Shown: one piece after another, positions 46,915 through 52,130 of the stretch
Numbering within the stretch: position 1 is the first letter of the stretch
How the letters are laid out: the number at the start of each line of letters is the position of its first letter
NCBI RefSeq assembly: GCF_000196115.1
Contig: NC_005027.1
Coordinates: 6,754,001-6,818,000 of the forward strand
Source of the DNA: Rhodopirellula baltica SH 1
Lineage (GTDB): Bacteria; Planctomycetota; Planctomycetia; Pirellulales; Pirellulaceae
DNA: 64,000 nt
Reading direction: 5' to 3'
Position numbers and translations under genes: made by a program
Notes under the pieces: model-generated
The model's input: only the letters and a program-made list of their open reading frames with translations
Database searches by the model: none
Told to the model about the DNA's origin: nothing

Positions 46915-48222
46915 ATGACCTTTCGACGCTTGTTGTTTCTTTTTGCCTGGCTGAGTGCGTTTTTACTGACACAAGGTGCAACCGCCCAAAAGCCCGGTGA
47001 GCTTCATGCCGTGGTGAAGACACGAGGCGCTGCGAAGTCTATCTCGAAGGCTCGCGACGACAGTTCGACGAATGTTGAAACTCATCAAGCCGATGAGAAT
47101 CCCCTGGATGGTCGTGAAGGCCGCGATTTGTCGGTGCATCATTACAACCCGATGTCTCAGTTAAAGACGAAGGTCACCGAGATCACACATGCCGCGTTTC
47201 CAGTGGTCAATGTGCACACGCATTTCTTCTATCGGCTGCGGCTCAATCGGGAGGCGTTGGAAGATTTCGTCGGGGCAATGGATCGCAACCGCATTGCCGT
47301 CTGCGTCTCACTCGATGGAAAGCTGGGGACTCAGTTCCAAGAGCAGAAGGAATATCTGTGGAAGGAGCATCGCGGTCGGTTTGTATTGTTTGCCAACGTC
47401 GATTGGCGCGGAGACGGTGCGAGTGACGACCCCGCGACTTGGGCGTGTTATCGGCCCGGTTTTGCCGAGCGGACAGTTGAGCAATTGCGAGAGGCGGTCA
47501 AGCAAGGTGCTTCCGGCTTGAAGTTGTTCAAGCGTTTCGGTTTGGGGTACCGGAATCCGGATGGATCGTTGATGAAAATCGATGATCCGCGTTGGGATCC
47601 GATTTGGGCCGCGTGTGGTGAACTTCAAATTCCAATCATCATCCACACCGCTGACCCGGCAGCGTTCTTTGATCCGATTGACGAACGCAACGAGCGATGG
47701 GAAGAGCTTTCACGGCATCCTGATTGGAGTTTTCATGGGGAGGAGTTTCCTTCCCGAGAGAAGCTCTTTGCCGCCCGAAATCGTATGATCGCGAAGCATC
47801 CCAATACGCAGTTCATCGGGGCACACATTGCCAACAATCCAGAGGACCTCGCGATGGTCAGTGAATGGATGGATCAGTATCCGAACCTGTGGGTGGAGCC
47901 CGCCTCGCGAATCAATGAGTTGGGAAGACAACCTCGAGCCGCCCGCGAATTTTTGATTCGGTACCAGGATCGGTTGCTGTTTGGGACCGACGGTCCATGG
48001 CCGGAGCAGCGTTTGCGTTATTATTGGCGGTTCTTCGAGACCGATGATGAGGCGTTCCCTTACAGCGAAAAGGAGCCTCCACCGCAAGGATTGTGGCAAA
48101 TCGACGGAGTGGACCTTCCTCCCAAGGTGCTCCGCAAATTGTATTATGAGAATGCCGTCAAACTGATCCCCGGCGTTCGCGAGCGTGCCGAAGCGTTTGC
48201 GAAACAGCATCCCTTGGATTGA
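46915..48222 (+). CDS. Amidohydrolase family protein (Amidohydro_2 type), exported
   Basis: 435 residues from the ATG at 46915 (MTFRRLLFLFAWLSAFLLTQG signal); an in-frame ATG at 46639 overlaps the previous gene and lacks a reason to be used. The TIM-barrel hydrolase shows the metal motif NVHTHFFYRL (HxH), then GLKLFKRFGLGY, IIHTADPAAFFDP, FIGAHIANNPEDLAMV and LLFGTDGPWPEQ with the catalytic aspartate. The family covers decarboxylases and hydrolases of cyclic or aromatic acids. The substrate is unknown. It lies between the sialidase-like gene and the cupin gene, all in one direction. Confidence 0.82.
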   Translation: MTFRRLLFLFAWLSAFLLTQGATAQKPGELHAVVKTRGAAKSISKARDDSSTNVETHQADENPLDGREGRDLSVHHYNPMSQLKTKVTEITHAAFPVVNVHTHFFYRLRLNREALEDFVGAMDRNRIAVCVSLDGKLGTQFQEQKEYLWKEHRGRFVLFANVDWRGDGASDDPATWACYRPGFAERTVEQLREAVKQGASGLKLFKRFGLGYRNPDGSLMKIDDPRWDPIWAACGELQIPIIIHTADPAAFFDPIDERNERWEELSRHPDWSFHGEEFPSREKLFAARNRMIAKHPNTQFIGAHIANNPEDLAMVSEWMDQYPNLWVEPASRINELGRQPRAAREFLIRYQDRLLFGTDGPWPEQRLRYYWRFFETDDEAFPYSEKEPPPQGLWQIDGVDLPPKVLRKLYYENAVKLIPGVRERAEAFAKQHPLD

Positions 48223-48239
48223 CCCCACAAGATAGCACC

Positions 48240-49169
48240 ATGACCACGTCCACCCCGGCCTCTCGCGAAATTCCGTCGTTGGATGCCTACGATGCCGAGA
48301 CATTTTTTCGCGATTACTACGCGACTGAGCAGCCCGTCATTTTTCGGGGAGTGACCCACGCGGACGGTGGGGCGGAGGAGGTTTGTCGTGCGTTGTGTGA
48401 CAAGATCGCGGTCGATGCATCGGTAACCGAACGTTTGCTGTGGTACGACGTGCGACAAGAGATGATTGACGATGTTTGTACGACACCGCCCGTTGTGACG
48501 GAATCGATGAATCCGGACACAGCATTTTTGAGGGACAACTGCGTTCGAGTCTGGTTCAACTCAGGTGGTCATACCACACCTTGGCATTACGACGGTCACT
48601 CGTTGCACGTTTTTAACTTGCAACTCAAAGGCAAGAAACGTTGGACGATTGTCGCGCCAGAGACGCCGCTTCCCAACATGCCATTCTCGAAGACTTGTTT
48701 GTTCGAGGACAACTCGCTGAAGGGCAAACGGGTTTACGAGTTCGATTTGTGCGAGGGCGACATGGTGTTTCTGCCGCGGTATTGGTTTCACCACGTTCAT
48801 TCGGTCGGCGAATTGAATGTCAACGTGAACTGGGTGTTGATGCCAAAGCAACAGCCAGCGGCCACCAAAATCGCGGCTCGTGAATCAGAGATTCTTTGGT
48901 TGTTGGACAAGAGTCGATTCGCGATGCCGTCGGGCGTTAAGTGGATGCTCGACAACTTTGCGGGCGCGGGAGAACCGGCGCTGAAGACTTTGACGAAAGA
49001 CGTGACGCTCGGACGCGGGATGAGTCGCGTGGCAAAGGAAGTGATCCGAAGTCCAATGGTGATTCTGGCAATTCCGACACTGATTCGAAAAGCCAAAACC
49101 GTGATGAAGGGAAAGAAAATTCTCAGCGGTTTACTTCAAACGAGTCAGGCCGCCCAGAAGGCGGCCTGA
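48240..49169 (+). CDS. Cupin-like / JmjC-type 2-oxoglutarate-dependent oxygenase family protein
   Basis: 309 residues from the ATG at 48240; a TTG at 48219 would overlap the previous stop. The Cupin_8/JmjC fold is marked by the iron-binding motif WHYDGHSLHVFNLQLKGKKRW (H-x-D near residues 116-118) and a second histidine in YWFHHVHSVGELNVNVNW, with K in GKKRW fitting the 2-oxoglutarate site. Members hydroxylate protein or small-molecule targets. No target can be named. The C-terminal 80 residues are helical. The stop codon lies in a hairpin at 49145-49169. Confidence 0.78.
   Translation: MTTSTPASREIPSLDAYDAETFFRDYYATEQPVIFRGVTHADGGAEEVCRALCDKIAVDASVTERLLWYDVRQEMIDDVCTTPPVVTESMNPDTAFLRDNCVRVWFNSGGHTTPWHYDGHSLHVFNLQLKGKKRWTIVAPETPLPNMPFSKTCLFEDNSLKGKRVYEFDLCEGDMVFLPRYWFHHVHSVGELNVNVNWVLMPKQQPAATKIAARESEILWLLDKSRFAMPSGVKWMLDNFAGAGEPALKTLTKDVTLGRGMSRVAKEVIRSPMVILAIPTLIRKAKTVMKGKKILSGLLQTSQAAQKAA
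49145..49169 (+). terminator. GC-rich hairpin overlapping the cupin gene stop
   Basis: TCAGGCCGCC / GGCGGCCTGA with a CAGAA loop; the stop codon TGA forms the end of the right arm. Ten perfect base pairs but no T-run, so it may stop transcription weakly or protect the 3' end. It lies between convergent genes. Confidence 0.45.
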
Positions 49170-49223: not shown

Positions 49224-49682
49224 TCAATGCTCGTGATCGAAGTCAGGCTTTTTGCCTTCGTAGGCTTCGTAGAAAGCAAAGATCGATTCTTCCAGAGCTT
49301 TCGCAGTCGCGGGATCTGCGGACTGCTTCGCCTTCATCGCGTTGACCATGACCTTGTGAGCGGCCATCAGCTTTTTTCCGTAAGCGGAATCGTCAGTCTT
49401 GATCCGTTGCGCCATGAAGTAGGCGGCAATGGTGTTCTGAATGCGAGTCGCGTGGTCTTCTTTCGTCGTCACCCAGCGAACGGCTTGGTTGACAGATTGT
49501 GCGTCGGTTTTGCCCGCGAGCGAATTGATTTCGATCTGAGCCTTTGAGATTGTGTGTTCATCTTCCAGCATCTCCTCGAAGCGACGTTGGTCGCCATAGA
49601 TGCCGCACGGGACTTGGCAGTGTGCCGAGGCGATGGTGGCAAATGCGAGAGTCAGGACGGTCGAGGCAAAAAAGCGATTCAT
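49224..49682 (-). CDS. sodN: Nickel superoxide dismutase with Sec signal peptide
   Basis: 152 residues from the ATG at 49682 (MNRFFAS...); an ATG at 49694 adds four residues. A signal peptide of about 20 residues ends A-S-A, and the mature protein would start HCQVPCGIY. This is the Ni-hook: His1, Cys2, Cys6 and Tyr9 all present (H21, C22, C26, Y29). The body matches Ni-SOD (AVRWVTTKEDHATRIQNTIA; YFMAQRIKT). The enzyme converts superoxide to O2 and H2O2 with nickel. Usually a short propeptide is cut by the protease SodX; here signal peptidase cleavage would free His1, predicting a periplasmic or exported enzyme. No sodX is near. The C-terminus ends DFDHEH. Confidence 0.88.
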   Translation of the reverse strand: MNRFFASTVLTLAFATIASAHCQVPCGIYGDQRRFEEMLEDEHTISKAQIEINSLAGKTDAQSVNQAVRWVTTKEDHATRIQNTIAAYFMAQRIKTDDSAYGKKLMAAHKVMVNAMKAKQSADPATAKALEESIFAFYEAYEGKKPDFDHEH

Positions 49683-49759
49683 GTTGTGATCCATTTCGGG
49701 GATTGGAGCGAAAGAGCGTGACTATCCAATGGGCGCAAGTCGACTCGCACCGCCTGCAA

Positions 49760-49800: not shown

Positions 49801-51087
49801 TCACTCGAAAATTGCTGAGAGTTCCTCGACAGGCAGGCTGGCAATTCTGGCGACCGCGTCCGCGTTCAGACCGTAGTTTGCGACCGTGGATCGCACCATT
49901 TTGTGCGAGCGTTTGGGCGATAGCAATAATTCGATTGCGACGGCCAGTGGCGGGATCCCGCTGAGCGGATCCTGTTTGAGCCGCATCATTTCCGGTTGTG
50001 AATCGCGGTAGCCATCTTGATGCCGGACTCGGTTGATTATCTCTTTCAAAACCTTTGCACGAGACCCGGTTTGCATGGCCTGGTCGAGCAATGCGGTGAG
50101 GAATTGGTGAGATCGAACGCCGGCAACGCCCGAGGCAACCGGTGCCGAGTCGGGGATCTTGCGAAGAGAAACCTCGACCAACAATTGGCAAAGATTGACG
50201 CCAGCCAACATCGCATTGACGGTTTCACCGATTCGCGGGTTGGCTTCGATGAATTGGTGCTGCCCGGTCGAATTGTCGTAGAAGTATTCGACGAAAAGGG
50301 CCCCGTGCCATTGAAGGGACTCACCCAAGCGACGAACATCATCCGCAACGTTTTCGCGATGGGTGCTGACGCGAACGATTGGTGCACCTCCGACTCCGCG
50401 GCGCAGTCCCATCGCGTCGTGCCAGGCAACCAAGCGTCCGCGATCGAAGATTGCTTGCAGAATTGAAAGTTCACCTGGTGCAGCAGCCTGCAGAACGATC
50501 TCTTGGTTGGGTAAAGACGCGTCGCTTGCGGTTTGTTCTTTGATCCATTCACGCATCTCCGTAGAGTCATGAATGGCAATCACTCCCCTGCCCGCGGTTC
50601 CATGAGCCGTCTTAAGAAAACATGGGTACTCGGTTTGTGCTGAGCAACCTTCTTGCAGTGATTGGATGGATGTCCCGTCGACAATGCGAGTGTGAGGCTG
50701 GGGCAAGCCCAACTCTTCCATCACTCGTGCGAAGTTGGCTTTGTTTTGCAAACGATCAATTGCGACGAACGTTGGCAACGCAACTGCAACATGGTTTTGA
50801 AGTTGATCTCGAACACGACTGAGCAAATAGGCTTGTTCGTGCGTGGCGATCACAACATCGTAGTCGTGCTTGTCGATCAGTTCTTTCAGCCGTCGCAAAT
50901 AGGCGACTGGGTCGGCCGAAGAAAGCGGGCATCGGTGCCAGTGCCGGACAAACGTGCTGAAGCGACCTTGGCTAAGTGCGGCCGAATCCATGACGTCGAT
51001 CGTGTGTCGACCGCCCAAGCAATGCAGCGTTTGGCGAGCGGAGGTGCTGGATCCTTCCGTCAATAGGATGCGCCGCGAGTCGTTCAT
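49801..51087 (-). CDS. ATP-grasp domain protein
   Basis: 428 residues. The ATP-grasp fold is shown by IDRLQNKANFARVMEELGLP, YPCFLKTAHGTAGRGVIAI (the phosphate-loop region with lysine), LFVEYFYDNSTGQHQFIEANPRIG (the metal-binding E-x-N) and NAMLAGVNLCQLLVEVSL. Members join a carboxylate to an amine or thiol through an acyl phosphate. The N-terminal part (RILLTEGSSTSARQTLHCLGG) is Rossmann-like. The substrate is unknown. Its ATG overlaps the stop of the ketopantoate-reductase-like gene (51087-51084), a strong sign of joint function. Confidence 0.85.
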   Translation of the reverse strand: MNDSRRILLTEGSSTSARQTLHCLGGRHTIDVMDSAALSQGRFSTFVRHWHRCPLSSADPVAYLRRLKELIDKHDYDVVIATHEQAYLLSRVRDQLQNHVAVALPTFVAIDRLQNKANFARVMEELGLPQPHTRIVDGTSIQSLQEGCSAQTEYPCFLKTAHGTAGRGVIAIHDSTEMREWIKEQTASDASLPNQEIVLQAAAPGELSILQAIFDRGRLVAWHDAMGLRRGVGGAPIVRVSTHRENVADDVRRLGESLQWHGALFVEYFYDNSTGQHQFIEANPRIGETVNAMLAGVNLCQLLVEVSLRKIPDSAPVASGVAGVRSHQFLTALLDQAMQTGSRAKVLKEIINRVRHQDGYRDSQPEMMRLKQDPLSGIPPLAVAIELLLSPKRSHKMVRSTVANYGLNADAVARIASLPVEELSAIFE

Positions 51088-52130
51088 CGCGATTCGATTT
51101 GTCGGAAGCGATCGATGACTTCTTCGCGGGTGAAGAACTTGCCAGCCCCACGGTTTTCAATCTCTCGGGCCAAATCGATGACCATTTGGTTGTAAGGAGC
51201 CGTGGTGCCATTCCGTTCAGCCAAGCGGACGATCTCACCGAGCGTGTGGTCGACTTCGGTGCCTTTGCCTTTCAGCAAATCTTGGTAAAGCGAAAACTGA
51301 ATAGGGCGTCGGTTGAAGATCAATTTTGCGCCGGTTCCGACAATTGGTCCAAGCAAAGGCGAGTCGAGTTTTCCAAAGAAGCCTCGCAACTTTCGGATGT
51401 CGGGAAGCTTTGGGATCCGGGCTAGTTTGACGCCTGCGGAGTCGAAGACTCGCAAGCATTCATCGGCCAAAGGTTTGCCAACGGCGCTTCTCCACCCACG
51501 ATGGCAAACGGCTTCGGTGATGAAATTGGATTGCGATAGCGAAGCGGCGTAACCGGGAGAGTTGATCGCGAGCTTGTTGTACCGAACGCCTTCCACGTTC
51601 GCTTCTTCGAATACACGAAAACCGGTTTTCTCAAGTGTTTTTGTTGCCGCGGTGGCGGATGCGGCATTGGTTCCCTGAGCATTTGGTCCGAGAACGATTG
51701 TGCCATTGAATTGAAGGCTGGCGGTGCCAGGTTCAGGGACGGTTACGTTGGTCGCGGTGATTCCCATGACCAAGCGTTCTTCGTTGACGTGTTGCAACAA
51801 GGCATCGTCGTTGAATCCGTTTTGAACTGAGACAACGATTGCGGCACCGAGGTAAGGTGCCGCGGCTGAGATGGCTTCCGCGGTGGCTTGAGATTTGACG
51901 GTTACCAACACCATGTCCGAGCCGGCAATGTCTGCTGGATCATCCGTGCCGATGACTTGGACGTTCCGTTCAGGCCAAGGTCCTTGCAGTCGGACGCGGC
52001 CGGAGTCACGGATTGTTTGGATGTGGCCTCCGCGGCCGAGCAAGACGACGTCGCAAGTCGGATCGTTGTCGCGGATCAAACCGCCAAGCATGGTGCCGAT
52101 CGCGCCGGCTCCGAGAACACTGATTTTCAT
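51084..52130 (-). CDS. 2-dehydropantoate 2-reductase (PanE/ApbA) family protein
   Basis: 348 residues. The NADP-binding loop is ISVLGAGAIGTMLGGLIRD (G-x-G-x-x-G). The substrate-site lysine motif is YNKLAINSPGYAASL, and the C-terminal helix has EVDHTLGEIVRLAERNGTTAPYN. Canonical members reduce ketopantoate to pantoate. Its neighbours (GH3 enzyme before, ATP-grasp coupled after) are not pantothenate genes, so another 2-oxo or imine substrate is possible. Either reading remains open. Confidence 0.82.
   Translation of the reverse strand: MKISVLGAGAIGTMLGGLIRDNDPTCDVVLLGRGGHIQTIRDSGRVRLQGPWPERNVQVIGTDDPADIAGSDMVLVTVKSQATAEAISAAAPYLGAAIVVSVQNGFNDDALLQHVNEERLVMGITATNVTVPEPGTASLQFNGTIVLGPNAQGTNAASATAATKTLEKTGFRVFEEANVEGVRYNKLAINSPGYAASLSQSNFITEAVCHRGWRSAVGKPLADECLRVFDSAGVKLARIPKLPDIRKLRGFFGKLDSPLLGPIVGTGAKLIFNRRPIQFSLYQDLLKGKGTEVDHTLGEIVRLAERNGTTAPYNQMVIDLAREIENRGAGKFFTREEVIDRFRQIESR

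Follow-up and report, generated by a model that had tools for sequence, protein, structure and literature searches.

How a nickel superoxide dismutase (NiSOD) could obtain a free N-terminal histidine without SodX is the question raised by one gene in the window, the 64,000-nucleotide stretch of DNA analyzed here. The SodX maturation route is established for canonical NiSOD (PMC3919588; PMC8346466). The original prediction was that the window gene encodes a Sec signal ending in A-S-A directly before the nickel hook HCQVPCGIY, so that signal peptidase I would expose the histidine during export and no SodX would be needed. The open reading frame does carry this arrangement, and the motif is pinned to the histidine across the divergent group of relatives that we call class B. 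From sequence and predicted structure, we consider it highly probable that the window protein is an exported NiSOD of this class, with His1 freed by signal peptidase I and nickel loaded outside the cytoplasm.

The window gene and its predicted product

The features of the locus are as follows.

49224..49694, minus strand: NiSOD gene, open reading frame including the stop codon (Pfam Sod_Ni, E = 1.2e-34)
49623..49682, minus strand: predicted Sec-type signal peptide MNRFFASTVLTLAFATIASA, 20 aa (24 aa from the ATG at 49694)
49596..49622, minus strand: nickel hook HCQVPCGIY, directly after A-S-A; codon of the predicted mature N-terminal His at 49620-49622
49227..49622, minus strand: mature four-helix NiSOD domain, 132 aa, as predicted with AlphaFold2 and Foldseek
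49227..49235, minus strand: C-terminal His-Glu-His end, putatively nickel binding
49801..51087, minus strand: gene for an ATP-grasp (CPSase_L_D2) protein, upstream on the same strand; context only
48219..49169, plus strand: gene for a JmjC/cupin-8 protein, converging neighbor; context only

The NiSOD open reading frame encodes 156 aa from the first ATG (49694) and 152 aa from the second (49682, the start used in the original prediction). Residues 22 to 149 match Pfam PF09055 (Sod_Ni) with 120 bits against a cutoff of 25, and no other Sod_Ni match occurs in the host genome (one contig; 7,145,576 bases searched). Against the NCBI sodN equivalog TIGR02753, the protein reached 34.3 bits for a cutoff of 90, which places it in the wide NiSOD family and outside the narrow SodX-type subfamily. 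Three other class B proteins scored 26 to 39 bits with the same model, and a fourth gave no match at E 0.001. The expectation of a complete NiSOD hook stands for the pattern H-C-x-x-P-C-G, present here as HCQVPCG, but not for the canonical Asp3, which is Gln in the window protein.

The N terminus reads MDHNMNRFFASTVLTLAFATIASA followed by HCQVPCGIYGDQRRF, with the predicted cut between the two. The leader has a single Arg, then a hydrophobic core (best 8-mer Kyte-Doolittle value, 2.14) and an AxA end, which in a rule-based test matches the Sec/signal peptidase I pattern of a positive start, a hydrophobic core, and small residues at -3 and -1; signal peptide assessment was rule based throughout. 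A Tat pattern (S/T-R-R-x-F-L-like) is absent from the window protein and from all 169 distinct class B N termini, seven of which contain RR. Inspection by eye gave no lipobox with Cys at +1, the predicted cut having His at +1 and Cys at +2. Upstream of the NiSOD gene, the minus-strand region 49801-52130 holds the ATP-grasp gene and a second gene, which we take to be ketopantoate-reductase-like, with a four-base overlap between them.

The mature domain was modeled by AlphaFold2 as four helices with a mean pLDDT of 92.2, although residues 1 to 3 fall below 50 and the hook itself is modeled at low confidence. The best Foldseek match was NiSOD 1t6u (TM scores, 0.70 and 0.78; 19% identity), at an E value of only 0.07. 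The first 14 rows were all NiSOD, with TM scores normalized by target of 0.66 to 0.80 and E values of 0.07 to 0.35, and the list includes the solved structure of a NiSOD D3A mutant. The predicted domain resembles the four-helix NiSOD fold. A phmmer search of solved structures with the window protein found no match, and a 42-row class B profile reached NiSOD at E 0.008 over its first 36 positions; the E values of some unrelated chains were comparable.

At the other end of the protein, 133 of 168 class B proteins and 0 of 14 class A proteins have a His among their last eight residues. Among 81 representatives, it makes up 15.0% of the last 12 residues versus 4.0% of the body. The His-rich C-terminal end may gather or bind nickel.

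A divergent class of NiSOD

Class B is our own label for proteins with the hook HC[QE][VI]PCG; class A denotes those with Asp3. In the phylum sample of 392 genomes, Sod_Ni was found in 55 genomes with 59 matches, and 57 hooks were read: 14 of class A and 43 with Gln or Glu at position 3 (class B). The two unread matches are contig-end fragments, one in G035 (counted as class B only) and the other a second fragment in class A genome G072. The order sample comprised 396 genomes, 88 with Sod_Ni; all 86 proteins read were class B. Loci from both samples were pooled with one plasmid and with the top 80 from a set of at least 562 relatives in named genomes, giving 14 class A and 209 class B proteins, the latter with 169 distinct sequences.

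Class B is a large, divergent NiSOD group. The hook reads HCDGPCG in 13 of the 14 class A proteins, and those 13 score 146 to 166 bits with Sod_Ni. Every one of the 169 distinct class B proteins has Gln or Glu at position 3, a constancy that follows in part from the definition, Asp3 having been the criterion for class A. Every Sod_Ni match read, 57 in the phylum sample and 86 in the order sample, keeps HCxxPCG; pooled rows were found by the hook pattern, so its constancy within the pool is partly built in. Profile alignment of class A (13 rows) with class B (42 rows) gave a probability of 97.3% and an E value of 2e-11. Mean column identity is 40% in the 42-row class B alignment, whose rows were chosen by the hook pattern, and His57 is invariant there, where the aligned canonical region has an invariant Gln.

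Judged by record title, the best 80 of the at least 562 relatives all belong to Planctomycetota or Verrucomicrobiota, and class B as a whole was seen in these two phyla and on one Fusobacteriota plasmid. This plasmid, pILYOP01 of Ilyobacter polytropus, encodes a class B NiSOD (L178, 3941-4396) with a direct junction between signal and His and is the one mobile-element copy seen. A phage search for mobile copies gave no match, and none of 11 viral-contig stretches that fit a pattern encodes a relative. In L063 (48-1403, minus strand), the NiSOD domain opens a 452-aa open frame; no Pfam family matched the remainder at E 0.001. Among 653 ORFs around the window gene and loci L022 to L064 and L069 to L148 (for L022 to L036, at most about 1.5 kb per side), there was no neighbor common to the whole group. 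Recurring neighbors are lineage specific, and two of the top neighbor clusters probably consist of wrong-frame ORFs that overlap the NiSOD gene itself.

The cut motif at the histidine

Two rules served to call cut sites directly before His, one broad, [AVSTGILCF]x[AGST], and one strict, [AVST]x[AGS]. By the broad rule, the 169 distinct class B N termini divide into 142 direct junctions, 20 ending in Pro, and 7 others. One direct case, L058, is doubtful, with 52 residues before His that may not be a simple signal; in 141 direct cases, the site at His is unchanged although the signal ranges in length from 18 to 32 residues. A small residue occupies -1 in 76 of the 86 order-sample proteins, and the ten exceptions are nine proteins from one host genus and L197.

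The signal-peptidase-like motif directly before the class B His is not due to chance. The strict motif occurs at His in 70% of the 169 sequences versus 7 to 28% at offsets -14 to -1, and in 71% of 82 representatives versus 4 to 23% at other offsets. When the last 10 residues of these representatives were shuffled 2,000 times, the mean count was 16.1 and the maximum 29, compared with 58 observed.

Hydrophobicity before His is high in class B, where the best 8-mer never falls below 1.8 (median, 2.8), and class A propeptides of the same phylum reach at most 1.9 (13 of 14 scored), start codons having been picked in both classes by the same hydrophobicity-rewarding score, which favors hydrophobic starts. 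All 14 class A propeptides end in [AV]xA directly before His; thus, the SodX route and the signal peptidase route share a cut motif.

Lineages with a spacer or without a site

A spacer of 10 to 23 residues separates the likely signal cut from His in 20 of the 169 class B rows (L089, L091, L092, L097, L101, L104, L105, L107 to L109, L113 to L115, L117, L124, L138, L228, and L231 to L233). Nineteen of these spacers end in Pro before His, with Pro at -1 in 19 of 19, at -3 in 16 of 19, and at -2 in 0 of 19; the twentieth, L228, ends in VVV. Most are not perfect X-Pro repeats, and in L091 six X-Pro dipeptides directly precede His. A short relative, L197, has Pro before His and no spacer. Six further rows lack a site at His (L049, L052, L053, L057, L059, and L060); in a quick 104-row tree, five of them form one clade and L053 stands apart. 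Host genus g289 contributes nine NiSOD genomes to the order sample; every one is of the spacer type, and the NiSODs of four of the nine are identical to those in records titled Mariniblastus.

Convergent origins of the spacer were considered, as the quick tree split the Pro spacers, and were rejected; a careful tree of 60 hand-chosen rows, from which the six other no-site rows were left out, places the 20 rows together on one side of a branch with support of 99/90. We retain a single origin. For proteins with a spacer or no site at His, a cut by signal peptidase would not by itself be expected to yield His1. In such class B lineages, it seems that another peptidase would have to complete the trimming, if a free His1 is required. 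That the free N-terminal amine matters is suggested by a NiSOD model peptide that was inactive when its N terminus was acetylated (PMC5722923).

SodX and S26 proteases

The original prediction noted no adjacent SodX gene and called for a search of the whole genome. The SodX model (TIGR02754) gave six weak matches in the host genome, none above the cutoff (best, 25.2 bits against 63.25), and four of these six places fall inside the three S26 (signal peptidase family) proteins of the genome. Of the 14 control genomes, 11 likewise gave weak matches to the model, none above the cutoff.

In the phylum sample, 12 of 14 class A genomes have SodX (E ≤ 1e-8) about 450 bases or less from a Sod_Ni match, nine above the SodX cutoff and three below; in G072 the adjoining Sod_Ni match is the unread fragment. 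SodX was found in none of the 41 class-B-only genomes, a count that includes the unread fragment of G035 (Fisher P = 2e-10 for class A versus class-B-only genomes, with no phylogenetic correction). At the sequence level, these counts support the view that class B would need no SodX. Nine genomes without NiSOD match the SodX model, all below the cutoff. Three genomes (G100, G169, and G191) hold both classes, a canonical NiSOD with SodX and an exported-type class B protein.

Other superoxide dismutases and nickel proteins

The host genome encodes one Fe/Mn-SOD, without an evident signal when read by eye, and no CuZn-SOD was found in it. In the phylum sample, Sod_Cu occurs in 3 of 41 class-B-only, 5 of 14 class A, and 70 of 337 genomes without NiSOD (class B versus none, P = 0.037). 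In the order sample, the direction is opposite (15 of 88 NiSOD genomes versus 36 of 308 others; P = 0.21), and the idea that class B replaces or excludes CuZn-SOD was rejected. Since the two co-occur in the order, an exclusive periplasmic role for class B is unsupported.

Urease was rejected as a second nickel enzyme of the host; the 24.8-bit match (cutoff, 23) lies in a 961-aa open frame, the 494-aa ATG-started part of which looks amidohydrolase-like. Elsewhere in the host genome, L240 (1474-2178) encodes a NicO-like membrane protein (40 bits) with a His-rich stretch that also matches DsbD_2. Perhaps it is a nickel/cobalt exporter supplying nickel to the envelope, though this is a guess.

Proposed maturation route and its alternatives

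Signal peptidase might cut nearby, for example after TIA or IAS, and an aminopeptidase might then trim the chain to His1. Overlapping, weaker -3/-1 motifs do lie one or two residues upstream, and the spacer clade must trim somehow if its His1 is to be free. However, among the 169 sequences the strict motif occurs at offset -1 in 8% and at -2 in 28%, against the 70% at His, and we regard a nearby cut in the window protein as quite unlikely. It appears highly improbable that the protein stays in the cytoplasm and is processed by an unrecognized SodX-like S26 protease, as in canonical NiSOD. The three S26-type proteins of the host and the [AV]xA end shared by canonical propeptides would suit such a route, and cyanobacterial NiSOD is stated to be cytosolic in PMC8193680, but class B leaders are more hydrophobic than canonical propeptides, and SodX above the cutoff is missing from the host genome and SodX from all 41 class-B-only genomes.

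The Gln or Glu at position 3, the invariant His57 in place of the canonical Gln, the His-rich C termini, and the failure of the sodN equivalog would all fit an exported protein that does not work as a NiSOD, such as a periplasmic nickel-binding or other protein that keeps the hook. The only cysteines of the window protein are Cys2 and Cys6, and a disulfide that could form between them in an oxidizing envelope counts against a working exported NiSOD. Yet HCxxPCG is present in every one of the phylum and order matches read while the hook-picked 42-row alignment averages only 40% identity, the predicted fold is NiSOD-like, and a D3A mutant has a solved NiSOD structure; this explanation therefore seems unlikely.

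The preferred reading, an exported NiSOD matured by signal peptidase I, fits the window protein and most of class B at the sequence level. It draws on the family match, the predicted fold, the signal-like leader, the cut motif at His, and the lack of SodX above the cutoff. Sec translocates unfolded chains, so nickel would be bound after export. The route that we infer for the window NiSOD, including its actual cut, location, nickel loading, and activity, would begin with secretion of the unfolded precursor through Sec. Signal peptidase I would cleave after A-S-A, and this single cut would free the alpha-amine of His1. The nickel site would then consist of the alpha-amine and imidazole of His1, the amide of Cys2, and both thiolates. 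The apo-enzyme would take up nickel outside the cytoplasm, perhaps aided by the His-rich C-terminal end, and the exported enzyme would remove superoxide in the periplasm or at the surface, with the cytoplasm served by the Fe/Mn-SOD.

A broader scheme can be offered tentatively, as a possibility that we rate below an even chance. Bacteria may have changed the way in which NiSOD is matured on at least two occasions. In one, the propeptide would have become a Sec signal, and signal peptidase I would have taken over from SodX. In the other, in the Mariniblastus-like clade, maturation would have come to take two steps, a cut by signal peptidase and then trimming of the Pro-rich spacer to His1 by a proline-specific peptidase. 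His-rich C termini would gather nickel outside the cell, so that the enzyme would never hold cytoplasmic nickel.

Comparison with known systems

Canonical SodN of the Streptomyces and cyanobacterial type shares with class B the HCxxPCGxY hook, the four-helix fold, and the small-x-Ala cut directly before His1 (14 of 14 here). It differs in its short, less hydrophobic propeptide, in Asp3, and in the SodX gene that adjoins sodN (12 of 14 genomes here), and two canonical examples score 178 and 192 bits with the NCBI sodN model, compared with 34 for the window protein. According to one survey, NiSOD may not be usable by cyanobacteria that have sodN but lack sodX (PMC8346466). Judging from class B, a NiSOD could be active even where sodX is missing, since a general signal peptidase could make the N terminus. 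The group further leads us to expect a nickel enzyme whose assembly takes place outside the cytoplasm, and it offers a simple route from a cytoplasmic NiSOD to an exported one. In the literature searched, as far as its accessible text goes, we found no account of a NiSOD that carries a signal peptide.

The ubiquitin-NiSOD fusions of marine algae resemble class B in being NiSODs with a different N-terminal leader and differ in being eukaryotic and in having ubiquitin rather than a Sec signal, as described in the available portion of PMC6332867. The tree in that paper already holds planctomycete NiSODs, and in the same available portion the term "signal peptide" occurs only in the SignalP reference. 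A general protease that removes the algal ubiquitin leader would also free the NiSOD N terminus.

Periplasmic CuZn-SOD (SodC) is an exported SOD with a signal peptide. One cyanobacterial SodC with a signal peptide is described in PMC11636452. Class B NiSOD is unrelated to SodC in fold and metal, and the two co-occur in 15 of the 88 NiSOD genomes of the order. Propeptides of the promelittin type, built of X-Pro and X-Ala dipeptides, are trimmed by dipeptidyl peptidase IV; the L091 spacer, with its six X-Pro dipeptides before His, resembles them, as a resemblance only.
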